Positions 8,752 through 34,577 of a DNA stretch of 64,000 nucleotides are shown one piece after another. Under the pieces are notes generated by a model. It searched no databases, was not told where the DNA came from, and saw only the letters and a list, made by a program, of their open reading frames with translations. The stretch's first letter is position 1, and the number at the start of each line of letters is the position of its first letter. The stretch comes from Halanaerobium saccharolyticum (GTDB lineage: Bacteria > Bacillota > Halanaerobiia > Halanaerobiales > Halanaerobiaceae): positions 217,489 through 281,488 of the forward strand of contig NZ_QLME01000002.1 of assembly GCF_003259895.1 (NCBI RefSeq). Direction: 5' to 3'. Position numbers and translations under genes: made by a program.

Positions 8752-8780
8752 TTGACTTATTTAAAAAATTCAGTTATAAT
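8752..8780 (+). promoter_or_regulatory. trp operon promoter (sigma-A type)
   Basis: TTGACT (8752-8757) and perfect TATAAT (8775-8780) are separated by 17 nt. Transcription should begin near 8787, only about 5 nt before the first triplet of the TRAP-type array. It would drive trpEGDCFBA. Confidence 0.85.
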
Positions 8781-8791
8781 TAAAAAAATTC

Positions 8792-8845
8792 GAGATGAGA
8801 AGAGCCCAGATTAGTAGAGAAGAGTTAGAGATGAGATTAGCAGAG
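8792..8845 (+). promoter_or_regulatory. TRAP (MtrB)-type binding site: 11 (G/U)AG-like triplets
   Basis: Triplets start at 8792 GAG, 8797 GAG, 8802 GAG, 8807 CAG, 8812 TAG, 8817 GAG, 8822 GAG, 8828 GAG, 8833 GAG, 8838 TAG and 8843 GAG. Ten are (G/T)AG and one is CAG. All spacers are 2 nt except one of 3 nt. Eleven triplets with 2-3 nt spacers is the layout bound by the 11-subunit TRAP ring in Bacillus trp leaders. The array is followed 18 nt later by an intrinsic terminator, as expected for tryptophan-TRAP attenuation. The mtrB gene itself is not in this window. The RNA site is read directly; the protein is inferred. Confidence 0.88.
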
Positions 8846-8863
8846 CAAATATGTAATTAACGG

Positions 8864-8901
8864 GCCAGATTTATATCTATTTATATAAATGTGGCTTTTT
8901 T
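8864..8901 (+). terminator. trp leader attenuator (intrinsic terminator)
   Basis: Stem GCCAGATTTATAT (8864-8876) / ATATAAATGTGGC (8883-8895) has one mismatch and a 6-nt loop, followed by TTTTTT (8896-8901). It lies between the TRAP-type array and trpE. A possible competing pairing is GCCC 8804-8807 with GGGC 8862-8865; it is short, so the exact antiterminator is uncertain. Confidence 0.85.
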
Positions 8902-8915
8902 GTTTTAGTAAAAGA

Positions 8916-8949: not shown

Positions 8950-9047
8950 ATCTCTTACTAATAACTACGGTCAGGCTTTTAACCAAGCTCTGGCCGTTTT
9001 CTGGTTTCAGGGCAGAAAACTGAAATAAGTTAAAGGAGGAGAGAGAT
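8950..9047 (+). promoter_or_regulatory. Structured trpE-proximal leader with possible start-codon sequestration
   Basis: A hairpin ACGGTCAGGCTT (8967-8978) / AAGCTCTGGCCGT (8985-8997) with two G-U pairs is followed by TTTTC. A second small hairpin TTTTCTG/CAGAAAA follows. ATCTCTT at 8950-8956 can pair with GAGAGAT at 9041-9047, which covers the 3' side of the ribosome site and the first two bases of the trpE ATG. This resembles translational control added to attenuation in Bacillus trpE. The pairing is inferred by eye. Confidence 0.4.
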
Positions 9048-10554
9048 GAAAGGCAAAAATGAATTTTTAGAATTAACAGCAGAATATAATCTGATTCCGA
9101 TTTACGATGAGTTTATTGCAGATATTGAAACTCCAATCTCTTTATATAAAAAATTAGCTCTTGATGAAGATTATACCTATCTTTTAGAGAGCTCAGAAAA
9201 TGACCGCTATTCTTTTATCGGCTTAAAGCCAGCGACTGTTCTTAAAAATTATGATAATTATTTAGAAGTGATTAAAGAGGGGAAAAAAGAAAAGTTAGAG
9301 GGTGAGAAGATAGTTCCTTATCTGCAGCAGCAGCTGGCTGAACTTAATGTTTATGAAAATGAAAAGCTGCCTCCGTTTTCTGGCGGTTTTGTCGGCTATT
9401 TTAACTATGAGATGATAGAAAAATGGGAGGATATTTATCATCTGGAGGCAGATAAAGGATTAAAGAAGGATAATACCCCCCTGAGTCTGCTGGTGATGAG
9501 TAAAATTATAATCGCCTATGATCATCTGCATAATACGGTCAAGATTATTAATAACCTTAAAATAGAATCAGACTTAAGCCGGAAGGAAAAAGAAGATATT
9601 TATCTGCAGGCTAAAGAGGAAATCAAAAAAATTAAAGCTGAAATTGAAAATAATAATTCAGAATTAAAGCCAGCAGCAGTTAATTTAGATTCAAAACAGG
9701 ATAAAAAGTTAAAGTCAAATACTACAAAAAAAGAATATCAAAAGATGGTAAAAAAGGCGAAAGAACATATTAGGGCTGGAGATATTTTTCAAATTGTACT
9801 CTCCCAGAAATTTTCAATAAAAAATGATCTGCCTCCTTTTAAGATTTATAGGGCCTTAAGATCGGTTAATCCTTCTCCCTATTCTTTCTATCTTAATTTT
9901 CCCGAGATAAGAATCATTGGTTCTTCGCCTGAGGTACTGGTTAGAGTTAGAGATCAGAGAGTAATGACCAGACCGCTGGCTGGAACCAGACGCAGAGGCA
10001 AAGATAATAAAGAAGATCAGAAATTAAAAATGGATCTCTTAAATGACGAAAAAGAAAAGGCAGAACATACAATGCTTCTGGATCTGGGCCGCAATGATTT
10101 GAGCAGAATTGCAGCTCCCGGCAGTGTTGAGGTCACAGAATTAATGGAAGTTGAGTTTTATTCCCGGGTAATGCACATTGTTTCTCAGGTGGAAGCTGAT
10201 CTGAAAGAAGGTCTGGACAGCCTGGATGTTTTAAAGGCGGTTTTTCCGGCCGGCACGGTTTCCGGTGCTCCTAAAATAAAGGCGATTGAACTGATTGATG
10301 GACTGGAAAAAGAAGCGCGTGGAGTGTATGCAGGTACAGTAGCATATTTGAGTTTTAATGGTAATTTAGACAGCTGTATCACAATCAGAACCTTTTCTTT
10401 AGTTGAGGGCAGGCTTAACCTACAGGTTGGTGCTGGAATTGTTGCTGATTCTGATCCGGTTAAAGAATATCAGGAGACACTTAACAAAGGGCGGGCTTTA
10501 TTTGAGGCTCTAGAAGTGGTAAGAGAGGATGGTATCCGTGATTTTAGTAATTGA
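9046..10554 (+). CDS. trpE: Anthranilate synthase component I
   Basis: Catalyses chorismate to anthranilate with TrpG; first step of tryptophan synthesis. The 502-aa length is normal. The LLES feedback-inhibition motif (about 47-50) is present near the N-terminus. The C-terminal chorismate-binding domain shows GDIFQIVLSQKF, SPSPYSFYL-like segment NPSPYSFYLNFP, MTRPLAGTRRRG, LDLGRNDLSRIA and FPAGTVSGAPKIKA. Start ATG 9046 behind AAAGGAGG. First gene of trpEGDCFBA. Regulation by TRAP-type attenuation plus Trp feedback through LLES is expected from sequence and family. Confidence 0.97.
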   Translation: MKGKNEFLELTAEYNLIPIYDEFIADIETPISLYKKLALDEDYTYLLESSENDRYSFIGLKPATVLKNYDNYLEVIKEGKKEKLEGEKIVPYLQQQLAELNVYENEKLPPFSGGFVGYFNYEMIEKWEDIYHLEADKGLKKDNTPLSLLVMSKIIIAYDHLHNTVKIINNLKIESDLSRKEKEDIYLQAKEEIKKIKAEIENNNSELKPAAVNLDSKQDKKLKSNTTKKEYQKMVKKAKEHIRAGDIFQIVLSQKFSIKNDLPPFKIYRALRSVNPSPYSFYLNFPEIRIIGSSPEVLVRVRDQRVMTRPLAGTRRRGKDNKEDQKLKMDLLNDEKEKAEHTMLLDLGRNDLSRIAAPGSVEVTELMEVEFYSRVMHIVSQVEADLKEGLDSLDVLKAVFPAGTVSGAPKIKAIELIDGLEKEARGVYAGTVAYLSFNGNLDSCITIRTFSLVEGRLNLQVGAGIVADSDPVKEYQETLNKGRALFEALEVVREDGIRDFSN

Positions 10555-11101
10555 TAATTATGATTCCTTTACCTATAATTTGGTGCATCTGCTGGAGGAG
10601 TTTGATCAGGTAAAGGTAATGCGTAATGATAAATTGAGTCTTGATGATGTGGAAATTATGGCACCTGATAAAATAATTATTTCCCCTGGTCCCGGCCGTC
10701 CGGATGATGCAGGGATTTCTAAGGAACTAATCGAATATTTTAAGGATAAAATTGATATTCTGGGTGTCTGTCTTGGTCATCAGTGTATTGGTGAGGTTTT
10801 TGGTTCCAGGGTAGTTGAGGCGGATAGAATTGTGCACGGCAAGGTGGCTGCAGTCAGAAAAGTTAGAGATGACAGTCTTTTTGCCGGGATTGACGATGGT
10901 TTTGCTGCTACCCGCTATCATTCATTGATAGTTGATCGGGAAAGTTTAGGTTCAGAACTTGAGGTGCTGGCAGAAAGTGATCAAGGTGAAATCATGGCCC
11001 TGAAACATAAAAACTATTCAGTTTATGGAGTCCAATTTCATCCGGAATCAATTCTGACTGAAGTTGGAAGAGAGCTGATCAAGAATTTTCTGGAGCTGTA
11101 A
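10538..11101 (+). CDS. trpG: Anthranilate synthase component II (glutamine amidotransferase)
   Basis: Class I glutamine amidotransferase supplying ammonia to TrpE. Seen: N-terminal ILVIDNYDSFTYNL, the oxyanion motif PGPGRPDDAG, nucleophile elbow GVCLGHQ with catalytic Cys, and FHPES with His-Glu near the C-terminus, about 187 aa. The frame opens at ATG 10529, but that codon touches its AGAGAGG ribosome site; GTG 10538 gives correct spacing and the usual family start (M-I-L-V-I-D-N-Y-D). It overlaps the trpE end by 17 nt, so translation is coupled. As trpG lies in the trp operon, it may also serve folate (PabA role) if no second copy exists. Confidence 0.95.
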   Translation: MILVIDNYDSFTYNLVHLLEEFDQVKVMRNDKLSLDDVEIMAPDKIIISPGPGRPDDAGISKELIEYFKDKIDILGVCLGHQCIGEVFGSRVVEADRIVHGKVAAVRKVRDDSLFAGIDDGFAATRYHSLIVDRESLGSELEVLAESDQGEIMALKHKNYSVYGVQFHPESILTEVGRELIKNFLEL

Positions 11102-11162
11102 TTTTGATTAAAGTCTTAGTAAATATATTTGAAATTCAATTGAAATTATTTTTAAAAAAGAC

Positions 11163-11197
11163 TAGCTGAGATGAGTAGAAATTTTAGAGGAGGAGAG
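11163..11197 (+). promoter_or_regulatory. Possible second TRAP-type site over the trpD ribosome binding site
   Basis: (G/T)AG triplets occur at 11163, 11168 and 11173 and again at 11185, 11190 and 11195, each set at exact 5-nt steps. A further TAG lies at 11176. The last three overlap the trpD Shine-Dalgarno AGGAGGAG. In Bacillus, TRAP blocks translation of several genes by binding triplets over their ribosome sites. Only six to seven triplets are present and ribosome sites are naturally GAG-rich, so this is suggestive only. Confidence 0.4.
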
Positions 11198-11200
11198 AGT

Positions 11201-12238
11201 ATGTTTAACAAACATTTAGATAAAGTAGTGAGTGGAAAAGATTTAACTCTGGCAGAAATGGAAGAAGCAATGTCAATGGTAATGGAGGGTAAAACAACAG
11301 ACAGTCAGCTGGCGGGATTCCTGGTTGGACTGCGGATGAAAGGTGAAACAATAGATGAGATAACCGGAGCGGCCAGTGTGATGAGAAATAAGGCAGCAGA
11401 GGTTAAAACTGAGGCCCGGAATTTGATCGACAGCTGTGGCACCGGAGGAGATGAAAAAGGAACTTTTAATATTTCTACAACTACTGCTCTTGTTATGGCA
11501 GCTGGTGGTTTAAATGTTGCCAAACACGGGAACCGTTCCGTTTCTTCAAAAAGCGGCAGTGCTGATCTGCTGGAAGCTCTGGGGGTAAAAATTGATTTAA
11601 GTCCTGAGGCAGCGGGGAAATGTCTGGATCAGATTGGGATTTCCTTTCTTTTTGCTCCCCATTTTCATCAGGCAATGAAATATGCGATTGGCCCGCGAAA
11701 AGAGCTCGGCTTAAGAACGATATTCAATATTTTAGGACCGCTGACCAATCCGGCAAAGGCTGATTATCAGGTGCTGGGAGTTTATAAAGAAGAATTGGTG
11801 ATGCCTCTGGCCTATGTGCTCAAAAACTTAGGCTTAAAATCAGCAATGGTTGTCCACGGAGCCGGGGGAGTTGACGAGCTGTCTCTGGTTGGAGAAAATA
11901 AAACAGCGTATTTAAAAGATGGAGAAGTCAAAGAATATAATTTTAGCGCGGAAGATGCCGGCCTTGAGTCCGCACCTCTGGAGTCTATTTTAGGGGGAGT
12001 ACCAGAAGAAAATAAGCAAATAACTCTGGATATTTTAAAAGGTAAAAAAGGTCCCAAAAGAGATGTTATTTTACTTAATTCAGCAGCAGCTTTCCTGGTA
12101 GAAAACAGGGTGGATAGTCTGCAGGAAGGTGTTAAAATGGCAGCCGAACTGATTGACAGCGGAAAAGCGATGCAGAAACTGGAAGAGCTTATTCAATGCA
12201 GCAATTCATCTGATAATAGTTCCAGGGCGGTGTCTTAA
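11201..12238 (+). CDS. trpD: Anthranilate phosphoribosyltransferase
   Basis: Transfers phosphoribose from PRPP to anthranilate. Visible are the GTGGDEKGTFNISTTTALV PRPP loop, KHGNRSVSSKSGSADLLEALG, and FAPHFHQAMKYAIGPRKELGLRTIFNILGPLTNP, all signature segments of TrpD; 345 aa from the chosen start. The frame extends to 11171, but AGGAGGAG at 11189-11196 sets ATG 11201 as the start. A 99-nt gap after trpG carries possible TRAP triplets. The stop codon overlaps the trpC start (TAATG), so trpD and trpC are translationally coupled. Confidence 0.97.
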   Translation: MFNKHLDKVVSGKDLTLAEMEEAMSMVMEGKTTDSQLAGFLVGLRMKGETIDEITGAASVMRNKAAEVKTEARNLIDSCGTGGDEKGTFNISTTTALVMAAGGLNVAKHGNRSVSSKSGSADLLEALGVKIDLSPEAAGKCLDQIGISFLFAPHFHQAMKYAIGPRKELGLRTIFNILGPLTNPAKADYQVLGVYKEELVMPLAYVLKNLGLKSAMVVHGAGGVDELSLVGENKTAYLKDGEVKEYNFSAEDAGLESAPLESILGGVPEENKQITLDILKGKKGPKRDVILLNSAAAFLVENRVDSLQEGVKMAAELIDSGKAMQKLEELIQCSNSSDNSSRAVS

Positions 12239-12981
12239 TGATTTTAGATAAAATTGTAGAGCATAAAATAAAAGAAGTTGAAGAACTGAAACAGCAGAGA
12301 AATTCTTTGAAAGAAAGACTGGCAGCAGATAAAATTTCACTGCTGGCAGAAATCAAAAAAGCTTCCCCGAGTAAAGGTTTAATCCAGCCTGATTTTAACC
12401 CGGCCGCTCAGCTTGAGGCTTATGAGCAGGCAGGGGCGGCAGGGATTTCAATTCTAACTGACCATAAATTTTTTCAGGGCAGCAGTCAGATTTTAAAAGA
12501 AATGAGAAAGCTGACTGAACTGCCAATTTTGCGCAAAGAATTTATTATTGATCCTTTACAGATTTATGAGAGTTTTTTTCTCGGAGCTGATGTAATTCTT
12601 TTAATAGCTGCAATATTAGATGACCGGCAGCTGGAGAGTTTTCTGGCTCTGTCCAGAGAGTTAAATCTGGAGGCTGTAGTTGAGGTGCACAGCCAGGAAG
12701 AATTGAGTCGGGTTTTAAAAACCAAAGCAGAGATAATTGGAATCAATAATCGTGATTTAAATGATTTCAGTGTTGATCTGAAAACAACAGCTGATTTGAA
12801 TGCTGAACTGGAGAAGCTGGGCCAGCGTGATAATCATTACCTGATTGCTGAAAGTGGAATTAAAACTAAAGCAGATATAGATTTTTTAAGAGAAATTGGA
12901 GTAGATGGAGTTCTGATTGGGGAGACTTTAATGAGAGCAGAATCTCCAGCAGCAAAAGTTAAGGAGCTGGGGCTAATCTAA
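12238..12981 (+). CDS. trpC: Indole-3-glycerol phosphate synthase
   Basis: TIM-barrel enzyme converting CdRP to indole-3-glycerol phosphate; 247 aa. Catalytic segments are visible: LLAEIKKASPSKG (Glu and Lys), ISILTDHKFFQGS, LPILRKEFIIDPLQIYES (Lys, Glu), IIGINNRDLNDFSVDL and LIAESGIKT followed by DGVLIGETLM. The ATG overlaps the trpD stop by one base. It is monofunctional: trpF is a separate gene downstream, as in Bacillus and unlike the E. coli fused trpCF. Confidence 0.96.
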   Translation: MILDKIVEHKIKEVEELKQQRNSLKERLAADKISLLAEIKKASPSKGLIQPDFNPAAQLEAYEQAGAAGISILTDHKFFQGSSQILKEMRKLTELPILRKEFIIDPLQIYESFFLGADVILLIAAILDDRQLESFLALSRELNLEAVVEVHSQEELSRVLKTKAEIIGINNRDLNDFSVDLKTTADLNAELEKLGQRDNHYLIAESGIKTKADIDFLREIGVDGVLIGETLMRAESPAAKVKELGLI

Positions 12982-13037
12982 AGACACAGGGCTCTCAGAA
13001 AGAAGATGATTTATTTAAATATTCGGAGGTGGATAAT

Positions 13038-13697
13038 TTGTTAAAAAATAGAACTATGATCAAGCTCTGTGGAATGACCCGGAGAGAAGATATTGTATAT
13101 GCAGTTAATATAGGTGTTGACGCCTTGGGCTTTATTCTGGCAAAAAGTCCTCGACAGATCAGTCTGGAAAAAGTGAGAGAACTGACTCATAATTTACCAC
13201 CATTTATTAACCGGGTAGCGGTTGTGGTAAACCCTGAACCAGAAGAAGTGGCAGAAATCGAAAAAAGCGGACTATTTGATTATATTCAGTTTCATGGCAG
13301 TGAGGAGCCGGAGCTGCTTGACAGTACAGCCTTAAAAAGTATTAAAGCCATCTCAATTGCCGGAGAAAAAGACCTGGATGAGCTTAAAAAATATAGGGAA
13401 AGTGCAGATTATCTCTTATTTGATACAAAAATCGGCAGTCAGAGTGGTGGTACAGGAGAGAGTTTTGACTGGTCCTTAATCAGTGCACTTAAGCTTCCAT
13501 ATATATTGGCCGGGGGTCTGGGAGTAGATAATATTGAGGCGGCTCTTAAAAAATTGAACCCGCTGGCAGTTGATATTAACAGCCAGGTAGAAAATGAGCC
13601 AGGGAAGAAAAATCACAGGCTGGTTAAAAGGACAGTGGAGAAAATAAAAAGTTTTAAGCCAAAAAATGAAACCAAAATCAAATTAAAATTTATTTAA
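13038..13697 (+). CDS. trpF: Phosphoribosylanthranilate isomerase
   Basis: TIM-barrel isomerase acting between TrpD and TrpC; about 219 aa. It begins with the typical IKLCGMTRREDI (catalytic Cys), and shows ALGFILAKSPRQIS, VVVNPEPEEV, YIQFHGSEEPE, LLFDTKIGSQSGGTGESFDW (catalytic Asp) and YILAGGLGVDNIEAAL. The frame opens with a GTG at 13029 that is inside the GGAGG site (13025-13029); TTG 13038, 8 nt downstream, is the likely start. The C-terminus has a 15-20 residue basic, Lys-rich tail longer than usual. A 115-nt AT-rich gap precedes trpB. Confidence 0.94.
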   Translation: MLKNRTMIKLCGMTRREDIVYAVNIGVDALGFILAKSPRQISLEKVRELTHNLPPFINRVAVVVNPEPEEVAEIEKSGLFDYIQFHGSEEPELLDSTALKSIKAISIAGEKDLDELKKYRESADYLLFDTKIGSQSGGTGESFDWSLISALKLPYILAGGLGVDNIEAALKKLNPLAVDINSQVENEPGKKNHRLVKRTVEKIKSFKPKNETKIKLKFI

Positions 13698-13812
13698 ATT
13701 TTGATAAATCGAAGTATAGCAAGTCAGAGAACTACCGATTTAAAAATAAAAACCTGATTCGAAACTATAAATCGAAATCAATAATTTTCAAAAAATGAAA
13801 GGAGTAGAGAAG

Positions 13813-14997
13813 ATGAGCAGAGGTTATTTTGAAGAATTTGGGGGACGTTTTGTCCCGGAAACTCTAATGCCGGCTCTGGACGAGCTGGAAGAAGTATATT
13901 TAGAGCTGAAGGATGATCCAAAATTTATTAATCAATTAAAGTCACTGCTTGCTGATTACAGCGGCAGACCGACTTCTTTATATTATGCTGAACAGCTGAC
14001 TAAACACTACGGAGGAGCAAAAATTTACTTAAAACGTGAGGATTTAAATCACACCGGAGCTCATAAAATTAATAATACATTAGGTCAGATTCTGCTGGCC
14101 AAAAAAATGGGTAAAAAGAGAATTATTGCTGAGACTGGTGCCGGACAGCACGGAGTGGCAACAGCAACAGTAGCAGCCCGCTTCAACTTAGACTGCGAAA
14201 TCTATATGGGTGCTGAAGATATAGAGCGGCAGGCACTTAATGTCTATAAGATGGAAATGCTGGGGGCAGAGGTTATCCCGGTGACCAGTGGAACTCAGAC
14301 TTTAAAAGATGCTACAAACGAAGCAATTCGTGACTGGGTAACAAATGTTGAAGATACCCACTACATTATTGGTTCTGTAGTTGGTCCCCATCCTTATCCG
14401 GAAATGGTTCGGGATTTTCAGCGAATAATTGGTGATGAAACAAAAAGGCAGATTAAAGAAAAAGAAGGCAGATTACCGGACTATATTTTAGCCTGTGTTG
14501 GAGGCGGCAGTAATGCGATGGGAATTTTTTATCCTTTTGTTGAAGATAAAGAAGTGAAGTTAGTCGGGATTGAAGCTTCCGGGAAGGGAATAGACAGCGG
14601 CCAGCATGCAGCTACTTTAACTGCCGGTCGGGTTGGAGTTTTACACGGCAGCAAATCCTATCTGCTGCAGGATGACGGTGGTCAGATTATCCCGGCCTAT
14701 TCAATATCTGCCGGGCTTGATTATCCGGGGGTTGGCCCGGAACACAGTTATTTAAAAACCATTGAACGGGTAGATTACCAGTCAGCAACTGATATGGAAG
14801 CTGTAGCAGCTTTTAAACTATTAAGTGAAAAAGAAGGTATCATCCCTGCTCTGGAGAGTTCTCATGCCCTCTCATACTTAGAAAAACTTGCTCCAGAACT
14901 TGATCAGGATCAGATAATAGTGGTTAATCTTTCCGGTCGGGGAGATAAAGATATTAATAATTTTAAGAAGATCAGGGAGGCAGAAAAAGATGAATAA
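13813..14997 (+). CDS. trpB: Tryptophan synthase beta chain
   Basis: PLP enzyme condensing indole with serine; 394 aa, normal length for the TrpB1 type. Seen: [16 protein letters not shown] at the N-terminus, [18 protein letters not shown] with the PLP lysine in [46 protein letters not shown] and NLSGRGDKD. An upstream ATG at 13795 is in frame but sits in front of the AAAGGAG site; ATG 13813 fits better. It overlaps trpA by 8 nt, consistent with making the two subunits in equal amounts. Confidence 0.97.
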
Positions 14998-15784
14998 AAT
15001 AACAGCACAATTTGAGAACAAAAACCCTTTAGTCACTTATATCAGTGGTGGTGATCCCAGTCTGGAGATGACCGAGAAACTGATATATAAACTGCAGGCT
15101 GAAGGTGTAGATATTATTGAACTGGGGATTCCCTTTTCTGATCCGCTGGCTGATGGCCCGGTGATTCAGGAGGCTTCTCAAAGAGCTTTAAAGGCAGGCA
15201 CAACTTTAAAGAAGCTGATTGCAAAGGTTAATCAAATCCAGGATCAGGTTGAGGTACCGCTGGTTTTAATGGGCTATTATAATTCAGTTTTAAATTACGG
15301 CGAAAAAGAATTTGCCCGAGATATTTCTGAGGCTGGAATCTCAGGTGTAATTATTCCGGATCTGCCGGTTGATGAGAAAGCAGAACTTTCAGAGCATCTG
15401 GCTGATTACGGGATTTCTCAGATCATGCTGGTAACTCCCAATACCTCAGATCAGCGCTTAAAAGAAATAACCGCTAAAAGTTCAGGTTTTCTTTACTGTG
15501 TTGCCCATCTGGGAACTACAGGTGATGATAAGCAGGGAGTGTATCCTGGTCTGGAAAACTACCTTCAGCGGGTCCGCAAAACTGCCGGAGATTTACCGCT
15601 GGGACTTGGCTTTGGGATTGATGGCCCGGAAAAAGTAAAAAAAATAATTGATTATCCGGATGGAATTATTATTGGAAGTGCTCTGATAAAAGCTATTCAG
15701 ACAGGGAATACAGAGGCAGAAATGTTGGACAACGCCGGTGAATTTGTAAGTAATATAAAACAGGCAATGATCGAAGAAAATTAA
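14990..15784 (+). CDS. trpA: Tryptophan synthase alpha chain
   Basis: Splits indole-3-glycerol phosphate to indole and glyceraldehyde-3-P and channels indole to TrpB; 264 aa. The catalytic Glu is in [20 protein letters not shown] and the catalytic Asp in [32 protein letters not shown] (loop usually YLLSRAGVTG) and [11 protein letters not shown] follow. The CVAHLGTTG form departs from the common SRAGVTG but keeps the Gly-Thr-Gly. Last gene of the operon, followed by an intrinsic terminator. Confidence 0.96.
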
Positions 15785-21361: not shown

Positions 21362-21565
21362 ATGATTTACACAGGAACAGTTAAGTGGTTTGATGGGAAA
21401 AAAGGTTTTGGCTTTATTGAAAGAGAAGACGGAGACGACGTGTTCGCACACTTCTCAGCTATTGAAGAAGAAGGTTTCAAAAACCTTGACGAAGGTCAAG
21501 AAGTAGAATTTGAAATCGTAGAAGGCGACCGCGGCCCACAAGCTGCTAACATCGTTAAATTATAA
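21362..21565 (+). CDS. Cold-shock protein (copy 1)
   Basis: 67-aa single-stranded nucleic-acid-binding CSD protein. RNP1 (KGFGFIE) and RNP2 (VFAHFSAI, usually VFVHFSAI) are intact. It differs from copy 2 (21845-22048) at only two residues (E/D at 39 and D/E at 44), and the DNA is nearly identical throughout the gene. It probably acts as an RNA chaperone in cold or growth transitions. ATG behind AGGAGG, own promoter, 5'-UTR hairpin and terminator. The two genes form a recent tandem duplication. Confidence 0.96.
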
Positions 21566-21844: not shown

Positions 21845-22048
21845 ATGATTTACACAGGAACAGTTAAGTGGTTTGATGGGAAAAAAGGTTTTGGATTTAT
21901 TGAAAGAGAAGATGGAGACGACGTGTTCGCACACTTCTCAGCTATTGAAGAAGATGGTTTCAAAAACCTTGAAGAAGGTCAGGAAGTAGAATTTGAAATC
22001 GTAGAAGGCGATCGCGGCCCACAAGCTGCTAATATCGTTAAGTTATAA
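21845..22048 (+). CDS. Cold-shock protein (copy 2)
   Basis: 67 aa, 65 of 67 residues identical to copy 1, with the same RNP1 and RNP2 motifs. Start ATG behind AGGAGGAAT. It has an independent promoter, leader hairpin and a stronger terminator (22078-22115). Because similarity extends over promoter, leader, gene and the first bases of the 3' region, the whole transcription unit was duplicated, with divergence mainly in spacer DNA. Confidence 0.96.
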
Positions 22049-33077: not shown

Positions 33078-33559
33078 TAGACTAACACCTCTCCGTATAA
33101 GACTCCTGTAGCAACAGCGATTAAGGCCGAAATGATAAAGCCGGCAATATTACGCCAGATAGTTGCTTTAATTCCGAAATATTCTTTTTCTACCGGATAA
33201 GTCGCAACTCCAACAAGCATTAAAGTTGTAATAAAGGCAGCAACAACCATGTAATTAACTCCCCTGGAAACTAAAATTCCTGCCAGTGGATAGGCAATAA
33301 AACCGGGCATCATAGTAATAGAGCCGATGATCAGCCCCATAATAAGACCGACAAAGGGAGCCTGTCCCCCGAGATAATTAATGATAAACTGATCCGAAAT
33401 TAATAAAATAAATGACAAAATAATCAATAACTTAAGATAGGTACCCAGAATTTTAGAAAATTTCTTCCAGCCAATCTTTAAGCCTTTAATAGTTTTTTCG
33501 CGATCTGCAAAAAATGAAATTAAGACTGCAATACCTGCAATGTAATAAAGTGTGTACAT
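33077..33559 (-). CDS. ArsP/DUF318-type permease, first half (split gene)
   Basis: 160 aa, four to five transmembrane helices. GLIMGLIIGSITMMPGFIAYPLAGILVSRGVNYMVVAAFITTLMLVG mirrors the P-F-x-A-Y/GANY...FVTAASLV block of the other half, as expected for inverted-repeat permeases. A basic cytoplasmic stretch (FADREKTIKGLKIGWKKFSK) separates the first two helices. First gene of the two-gene unit; a CsoR/CstR-like palindrome at 33578-33594 lies 18 nt before the start codon. The split into two proteins is seen in several clostridial relatives (inference from memory). Confidence 0.65.
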   Translation of the reverse strand: MYTLYYIAGIAVLISFFADREKTIKGLKIGWKKFSKILGTYLKLLIILSFILLISDQFIINYLGGQAPFVGLIMGLIIGSITMMPGFIAYPLAGILVSRGVNYMVVAAFITTLMLVGVATYPVEKEYFGIKATIWRNIAGFIISALIAVATGVLYGEVLV

Positions 33560-33577
33560 TATTTTCCCTCCCTGATA

Positions 33578-33594
33578 ATACCCTCATGGGGTAT
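33578..33594. promoter_or_regulatory. CsoR/CstR-type operator palindrome
   Basis: ATACCCTCATGGGGTAT is a perfect 6-5-6 inverted repeat (ATACCC / GGGTAT). This matches the G/C-tract operators of the CsoR family (copper-sensing CsoR, persulfide-sensing CstR). It sits directly upstream of the split permease genes. The regulator gene is not in the window; the assignment is inferred from the motif. Confidence 0.6.
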
Positions 33595-33704
33595 CTTTGT
33601 AGTAATCATATGATTAAAACAGCAGAAAAAAAGTAAAGCAGATAACAATTTTGTAAATTATATTTAAAAAATGCGATATTATTCTCAAAATGAACCTTAA
33701 GAGC

Positions 33705-33733
33705 TTGTTTAAAAACCCCAATTGTATTATAAT
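33705..33733 (+). promoter_or_regulatory. Promoter of secreted Asn/Lys-rich protein gene
   Basis: TTGTTT (33705-33710), 17-nt spacer, perfect TATAAT (33728-33733), 35 nt before the ATG. Confidence 0.75.
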
Positions 33734-33767
33734 TAAACATAGAATAGAAAAAGGGGGTAATAAAAAA

Positions 33768-34577
33768 ATGAAGAAGAAATTAAGTATCTTATTGATCATA
33801 ACAGTAATGCTTTTTGCCTTTGTACCTGCCTTAACACTGGCTCAGGATGAAGAAACAGCAGTAGAAGAGGAAACCGATCAAATTTCTACAGAATTAGAAG
33901 AAATTTTAGCAGCAGATTATGCAACTGTGGAAGAGTACTTGGCTGCTTTAGAAGAAAATGAAATGCTTTCAACTGTTGAAAAAATAACCTTAGAGAAAAA
34001 ATTGAGCTCATATGAGGAAAATTTAAGTATGGACAGCATAACTTCAGTTGTTGACAAAGTATTAAACAAAGAAATTGATCTGGGACAGGGCTTTGTGATC
34101 TTAAATAATTTAGAAGAGAGCACAGTAAATGGTTATGACGAGGAAAAGGCTTTAGAAATGATCAATAGTTATCAGAATCAGGAAAACTCCGGTCACTTGG
34201 CTTTCCAGACCGCTCTGGAGCTGCGCAAGTTGAGCCGTGAAGATCTATCTGGAGAACAAACAGATGCCTTTTCTGAGCAGATAGCTGCTATTATTGAAGA
34301 AAACGGAGAGATTCAGACTTCTGAATTAAAACAGCTGGCAGCAGAATATAGAAAAGAAGCCAGAGAAGAGGGAAGAGAGCAGAGAAAAATCGCTAAATCT
34401 GAAAAGGGAAATTCAGCTTCCGAAAATGCTTTAGAAAATGGGAACCCCAATAAAGCAGCAGATAAAGATCAAAATAAAGATAATAAAGGTAAAGGTAATT
34501 CCAATAATTCAAAAGCAAAAGACAAGAGTAATGGTAACTCTTCAGGAAAATCTTCAAATTCCAATGCAAAAAATTAG
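33768..34577 (+). CDS. Secreted protein with helical body and Asn/Lys/Ser-rich tail, function unknown
   Basis: 269 aa. A signal peptide (MKKKLSILLIITVMLFAFVPALTLA, cut before QDEE) directs export. The acidic helical body (about 30-210) is followed by a Lys/Arg/Glu helix (AEYRKEAREEGREQRKIAK) and a disordered tail of about 50 residues made mostly of Asn, Lys, Ser and Gly. No family was recognised. The frame opens at 33690, but GGGGG at 33754-33758 and the signal peptide fix ATG 33768. It may sit in the periplasm or at the surface; the tail could bind acidic polymers (inference). Own promoter and terminator. Confidence 0.7.
   Translation: MKKKLSILLIITVMLFAFVPALTLAQDEETAVEEETDQISTELEEILAADYATVEEYLAALEENEMLSTVEKITLEKKLSSYEENLSMDSITSVVDKVLNKEIDLGQGFVILNNLEESTVNGYDEEKALEMINSYQNQENSGHLAFQTALELRKLSREDLSGEQTDAFSEQIAAIIEENGEIQTSELKQLAAEYRKEAREEGREQRKIAKSEKGNSASENALENGNPNKAADKDQNKDNKGKGNSNNSKAKDKSNGNSSGKSSNSNAKN

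Follow-up and report, generated by a model that had tools for sequence, protein, structure and literature searches.

The trp operon of Halanaerobium saccharolyticum appears to be controlled by TRAP, acting through an array of 11 triplets at the beginning of the operon leader. Judging from sequence comparison, we put the probability of this reading at about 0.9. The reading is carried by the periodicity of the array, by an mtrB gene elsewhere in the genome, by terminators located between the array and trpE, and by the conservation of these elements in related genomes.

The window, i.e., the entire 64,000-nucleotide stretch that was analysed, contains a complete trpEGDCFBA operon (9046 to 15784) downstream of the leader; assignment of the genes to Pfam families bears out the first-pass annotation, which had called the operon probable (Table 1). 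Further downstream, at 21362-21565 and 21845-22048, the window contains tandem, nearly identical cold-shock-like ORFs of 67 aa.

Table 1. Elements of the trp leader and genes of the trp operon, with positions in the window
Feature	Sequence	Position	Strand	Basis or remark
Sigma-70-type promoter	TTGACT-17-TATAAT	8752..8780	+	11 of 12 consensus bases; same layout 5' of relatives' arrays
Putative TRAP-binding array, 11 triplets	GAGatGAGaaGAGccCAGatTAGtaGAGaaGAGttaGAGatGAGatTAGcaGAG	8792..8845	+	Direct reading, chain score, relatives
Switch element in array	AAGAGCCCAGATTAGTAG	8800..8817	+	5' arm of predicted T2 antiterminator
Second array segment	AGTTAGAGAT	8823..8832	+	Predicted partner ATCTCTTACT (8950-8959)
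Terminator T1	GGCCAGATTTATAT...ATATAAATGTGGCT then TTTTTGTTTT	8863..8896, U-run 8897-8906	+	-13.4 kcal/mol; co-varying stem
Two-partner segment		8950..8966	+	Predicted to pair with array (TRAP free) or trpE Shine-Dalgarno region (TRAP bound)
Terminator T2	ACGGTCAGGCTTTTAACCAAGCTCTGGCCGT	8967..8997	+	Hairpin scan, relatives, alignment
trpE Shine-Dalgarno	AGGAGG	9034..9039	+	Predicted partly hidden with array held open
trpE, anthranilate synthase component I		9046..10554	+	PF04715, PF00425
trpG, glutamine amidotransferase component		10529..11101	+	PF00117
Short triplet cluster over trpD ribosome site	TAGctGAGatGAG...TAGagGAGgaGAG	11163..11197	+	Score 4.5
trpD		11201..12238	+	PF00591, PF02885
trpC		12238..12981	+	PF00218
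trpF		13029..13697	+	PF00697
trpB		13810..14997	+	PF00291
trpA		14990..15784	+	PF00290

Direct reading of the leader confirmed the promoter and the 11 triplets, with the spacers that had been described for them. Eight triplets are GAG, two are TAG, and one, the fourth, is CAG; nine spacers are 2 nt long and one is 3 nt. The transcription start was placed near 8787 from the position of the promoter, and the array would thus begin about 5 nt past it. The first-pass annotation had this distance right, but opened the region at 8787, while the array itself begins at 8792. The trp leader of B. subtilis carries a 5' stem-loop before its array; this feature, which we do not take as defining the family, is absent from the Halanaerobium leader, where the ca. 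5 nt separating the presumed start site from the array leave no room for it.

The chain score of the array was 9.55, while the best score among 20 dinucleotide-shuffled 64-kb windows was 4.85; the maximum on the minus strand of the window was 2.7. A genome-wide search with a pattern of seven consecutive triplets, two mismatches allowed, returned only the array and one other site, where a second trpB gene begins. The minimum free energy fold of the 125-nt leader was not unusually stable (z -1.1), and the structure was therefore argued from the comparison of relatives, which included H. saccharolyticum, H. congolense, H. kushneri and H. polyolivorans. In almost every genome of the order trpE is preceded by a periodic array, as it is in 22 of the 25 TRAP-positive genomes scored in the wider phylum, and the expected arrays were recovered at Bacillus loci used as positive controls. 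The triplet periodicity, the loss of which in close relatives would have told against the annotation, is thus kept.

Lack of mtrB would have refuted the annotation, but, as it had anticipated, the gene is encoded elsewhere in the genome, at G000:C17:60476-60679 (PF02081, E 7.2e-38), with a DNA polymerase III-like ORF on one side and a phosphofructokinase-like ORF on the other. The encoded protein shares 59% identity with its B. subtilis counterpart, its relatives in the PDB are TRAP chains, and all six RNA-binding residues listed for TRAP (F32, E36, K37, D39, K56 and R58 in B. subtilis numbering; PMC3184956) are kept. A search with the Pfam model found mtrB in 32 of the 38 Halanaerobiales genomes, and TRAP was found in 200 of 398 genomes sampled from the phylum, i.e., in about half; in three genomes (G029, G076 and G213) mtrB is located close upstream of trpE. 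No homologue of anti-TRAP (rtpA) was found, the best matches being zinc-finger stretches in DnaJ-like frames of ca. 380 aa. One step of the earlier reasoning, from 11 triplets to a ring of 11 subunits, is not safe, since Val11 of the B. subtilis protein is replaced by Leu in the host TRAP, and B. subtilis TRAP with the V11L substitution forms a 12-mer (PMC3184956). A one-to-one match between triplets and subunits may therefore not hold.

A sister family, f7, served as a negative control. It is without mtrB in the Pfam model search of the order, which has a positive control, and in a second profile search, which has none of its own. Arrays are absent from the trpP leaders of two f7 genomes, G033 and G037, where 68 and 101 of 200 shuffles, respectively, reach the observed scores. 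Most trpP genes of mtrB-bearing genomes, by comparison, carry ribosome-site arrays that score above nearly all shuffles. Two isolated cases were also noted. In G036 (C72:2041-2063, L087), a genome that is 62% complete and belongs to a family in which no mtrB was found, an array precedes a sodium:neurotransmitter symporter-like gene. In a Halanaerobium genome, G014, mtrB and a trpP array (L231) are kept while a trpE match is absent, which suggests that TRAP has been kept there for the control of transport alone.

These data bear on two explanations that dispense with TRAP, both of which we consider very improbable. The triplets could be a chance purine-rich stretch, or could be read by another factor; the unremarkable stability of the leader fold is the one point in favour of this, while an array score twice that of the best shuffled window, conservation of the array across families and its co-occurrence with mtrB all argue against it. 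Control of the operon by a Trp T-box or a leader peptide was rejected. The host genome does contain 11 T-box matches, but the neighbours that could be read look like argF, serS, argG, thrS, ileS, pheS and ilvB, with no trp gene among them (one T-box at a contig end has no readable gene); the leader matches no Rfam family, and the stretch between the array and T2 shows no Trp-rich leader peptide. The earlier preference for TRAP over a T-box or a leader peptide is supported by mtrB, by the conserved arrays and by the lack of a T-box at the operon.

A TRAP attenuator requires a terminator between the array and the first trp gene, and the leader has two, T1 and T2. The intrinsic terminator that had been reported 3' of the array, T1, is real, and the covariation that the annotation proposed to look for in related leaders was seen in its stem, where an A-U pair is replaced by G-C in G010 and G012 and by G-U in G015. 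T1 is, however, only the first of the two; T2, which had gone unmentioned, is separated from trpE by 48 nt and adjoins its ribosome site. A terminator at the T2 position was observed in every family of the order having a readable leader, while T1 was observed in most leaders, but was not found in G018, G024, G025 and G026, which retain T2 and the array. In an alignment of 13 T2 sequences, 97% of cells were paired, and the covariation score was above that of every shuffle. We conclude that T2 is more widely conserved than T1. The T2 hairpin of the host species, like that of its nearest relative, G017, is followed by a broken U-run (TTTCTGGTTT; TTTCTGG), which makes the strength of T2 in the host uncertain; T2 may be weak there, with T1 doing the work.

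The array is complementary to T2 beyond chance. When leaders were folded up to the terminator loop, the array paired with the terminator 5' arm in 23 of 23 cases, in 20 of them via a GAGCC(C/T) element located toward the 5' side of the array. Since such truncated folds give the arm few other partners, the pairing was tested against shuffles. With one genome taken per genus, freeing the array yielded a larger energy gain than freeing shuffled versions of it (Stouffer z -6.0), and tests of the array-T2 arm duplex gave Fisher p values of 8e-5 and 2e-5; these folding tests were chosen after the pattern had been seen, and were applied to related genomes with hand-picked genus representatives. The sequence of the T2 arms differs between families, while their complementarity to the array stays. 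The main predicted helix, between AAGAGCCCAGATTAGTAG (8800-8817) and CTACGGTCAGGCTTTT (8965-8980), was paired in 91% of cells, and the structure showed a covariation score that none of the shuffles attained. The helix predicted for the second array segment had 68% paired cells, with changes on both sides at five of nine pairs. The 40 nt upstream of T2 alone paired with the array no better than shuffles in most genomes, and the signal is located in the T2 arm itself. Based on these predictions, an antiterminator of T2 that uses array sequence is moderately likely. The CAG triplet and a CC spacer would then be accounted for, since pairing, in addition to TRAP, would constrain this part of the array. 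In equilibrium folding, T2 formed in most leaders even without TRAP, and antitermination, if it occurs, must therefore be kinetic.

From these models we infer TRAP binding, termination at T1 and T2, antitermination and an effect on translation, which could be combined as follows. When tryptophan is plentiful, the TRAP ring would bind the 11 triplets of the nascent leader and block pairing of the array; with the array occupied, T1 and then T2 would fold in turn, and most transcripts would stop. When tryptophan is scarce, the free array segment AAGAGCCcagATTAGTAG would pair, over a long range, with the T2 5' arm; T2 could not form, and trpEGDCFBA would be transcribed. In TRAP-bound RNA that has been read through, the segment at 8950-8966 would become available for pairing with the ribosome site of trpE, and less TrpE would be translated. 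This last step is suggested by folds with the array held open, in which the segment was predicted to pair with the Shine-Dalgarno region of trpE, and the Shine-Dalgarno sequence was less accessible with the array open in 16 of 20 leaders of the order (sign test p 0.012, the genomes being related to each other). We regard the chances that TRAP binding lets the leader segment hide the Shine-Dalgarno sequence as even. The whole scheme, a three-step repression relay (T1, T2 and trpE translation) set off by one binding event, in which the array would supply the 5' arm for two antiterminators in succession and would also free the segment that hides the Shine-Dalgarno sequence, operating across Halanaerobiales without the Bacillus 5' stem-loop or anti-TRAP, is put forward tentatively, as less likely than not.

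Two other arrangements would leave TRAP in control but assign the terminators different roles. T1 alone could be the TRAP-controlled attenuator, kept open without TRAP by pairing of 8804-8816 with 8850-8865, with T2 unregulated or decaying. With its full U-run and co-varying stem, T1 makes a good terminator, an antiterminator of T1 can be drawn, its helix is the minimum free energy structure of the array plus the T1 5' arm (-11.8 kcal/mol), and in one genus (g5, G002-G004) only 13-46 of 300 shuffles match the T1-array pairing; the interrupted U-run of T2 in the host species points the same way. Within Halanaerobium, however, shuffled arrays paired with T1 just as well as the real ones (mean z -0.16), the four genomes in which no T1 was found keep T2 and the array, and the invariant GAGCC element is complementary to the T2 arms. 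The best-supported antiterminator thus appears to act on T2 and not on T1, and we consider control through T1 alone rather unlikely. It is less probable still that TRAP stops transcription mainly via the elongation complex once the array is bound, hairpins being secondary. B. subtilis TRAP does cause efficient termination in vivo despite a mutated or deleted attenuator (PMC3913778), but it is unlikely that two terminators that are conserved, co-vary and have U-runs, one of them with an arm complementary to the array, would be kept unused.

Other targets of TRAP were sought with patterns and family searches, as opposed to an exhaustive scan. Two adjacent trpP-type transporter genes of the host (PF17099, G000:C8 ~33160-34304; L075 and L246) have arrays over the Shine-Dalgarno sequence and start codon; at the first of them, 11 triplets are arranged in two blocks. 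The second trpB, separate from the operon, has triplets around its start codon (G000:C3:198633-198665, L003), a pattern seen in eleven genomes of the family. Judging by these arrays, TRAP probably also controls the two transporters and the second trpB. The triplet cluster at the trpD ribosome site was not significant alone but is kept in several Halanaerobium genomes, and is a possible weak second TRAP site of the operon. In related genomes, arrays before a nadA-like gene (L071, G011) and an uncharacterised ORF (L078, G021:C5) mark possible further targets.

TRAP attenuation is a textbook mechanism that has been studied almost only in Bacillus. In the literature searched, no account of TRAP in Halanaerobiales was found, although subscription papers were mostly outside that literature and the absence proves little. 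The presence of TRAP in half of the phylum genomes sampled, together with arrays before trpE in most of those inspected, indicates that the mechanism is probably far commoner than this literature suggests. TRAP is the likely means of tryptophan control in an anaerobic lineage that bears an outer membrane, with a small predicted regulon consisting of the trp operon, two trpP genes and the second trpB, and with no recognisable anti-TRAP. Such natural variants could be used to test which of the Bacillus parts are essential: the 5' stem-loop, the single terminator, the ring size and anti-TRAP.

The layout of the Halanaerobium leader differs from the Bacillus model in its tandem terminators, in the predicted long-range antiterminator acting on the second of them, and in the absence of the 5' stem-loop, the array lying ca. 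5 nt from the start. Like it, the leader of B. subtilis trpEDCFBA carries, upstream of trpE, 11 (G/U)AG triplets spaced by 2-3 nt, and an intrinsic terminator with array sequence as an antiterminator arm (PMC4027176, PMC11255114). B. subtilis, however, has a single terminator (+108 to +133), its antiterminator spanning +60 to +111 (PMC4027176), whereas in Halanaerobium the main antiterminator arm is near the array 5' end, and its partner is about 150 nt away; also unlike in B. subtilis, an anti-TRAP homologue was not found. Bacillus halodurans likewise has a TRAP family protein and a NAG-triplet array in its trp leader, but its triplets number 19 and its ring has 12 subunits (PMC3184956), compared to 11 triplets here. 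Hiding of the trpE Shine-Dalgarno sequence, as predicted here, resembles the TRAP-dependent trpE Shine-Dalgarno hairpin of B. subtilis (PMC11255114). The Halanaerobium trpP arrays, lying over the Shine-Dalgarno sequence and start codon, are similarly reminiscent of translational repression of trpP and trpG by TRAP in B. subtilis, from which they differ in the two-block arrangement at the first trpP and in the extra predicted targets, the second trpB and possibly trpD.
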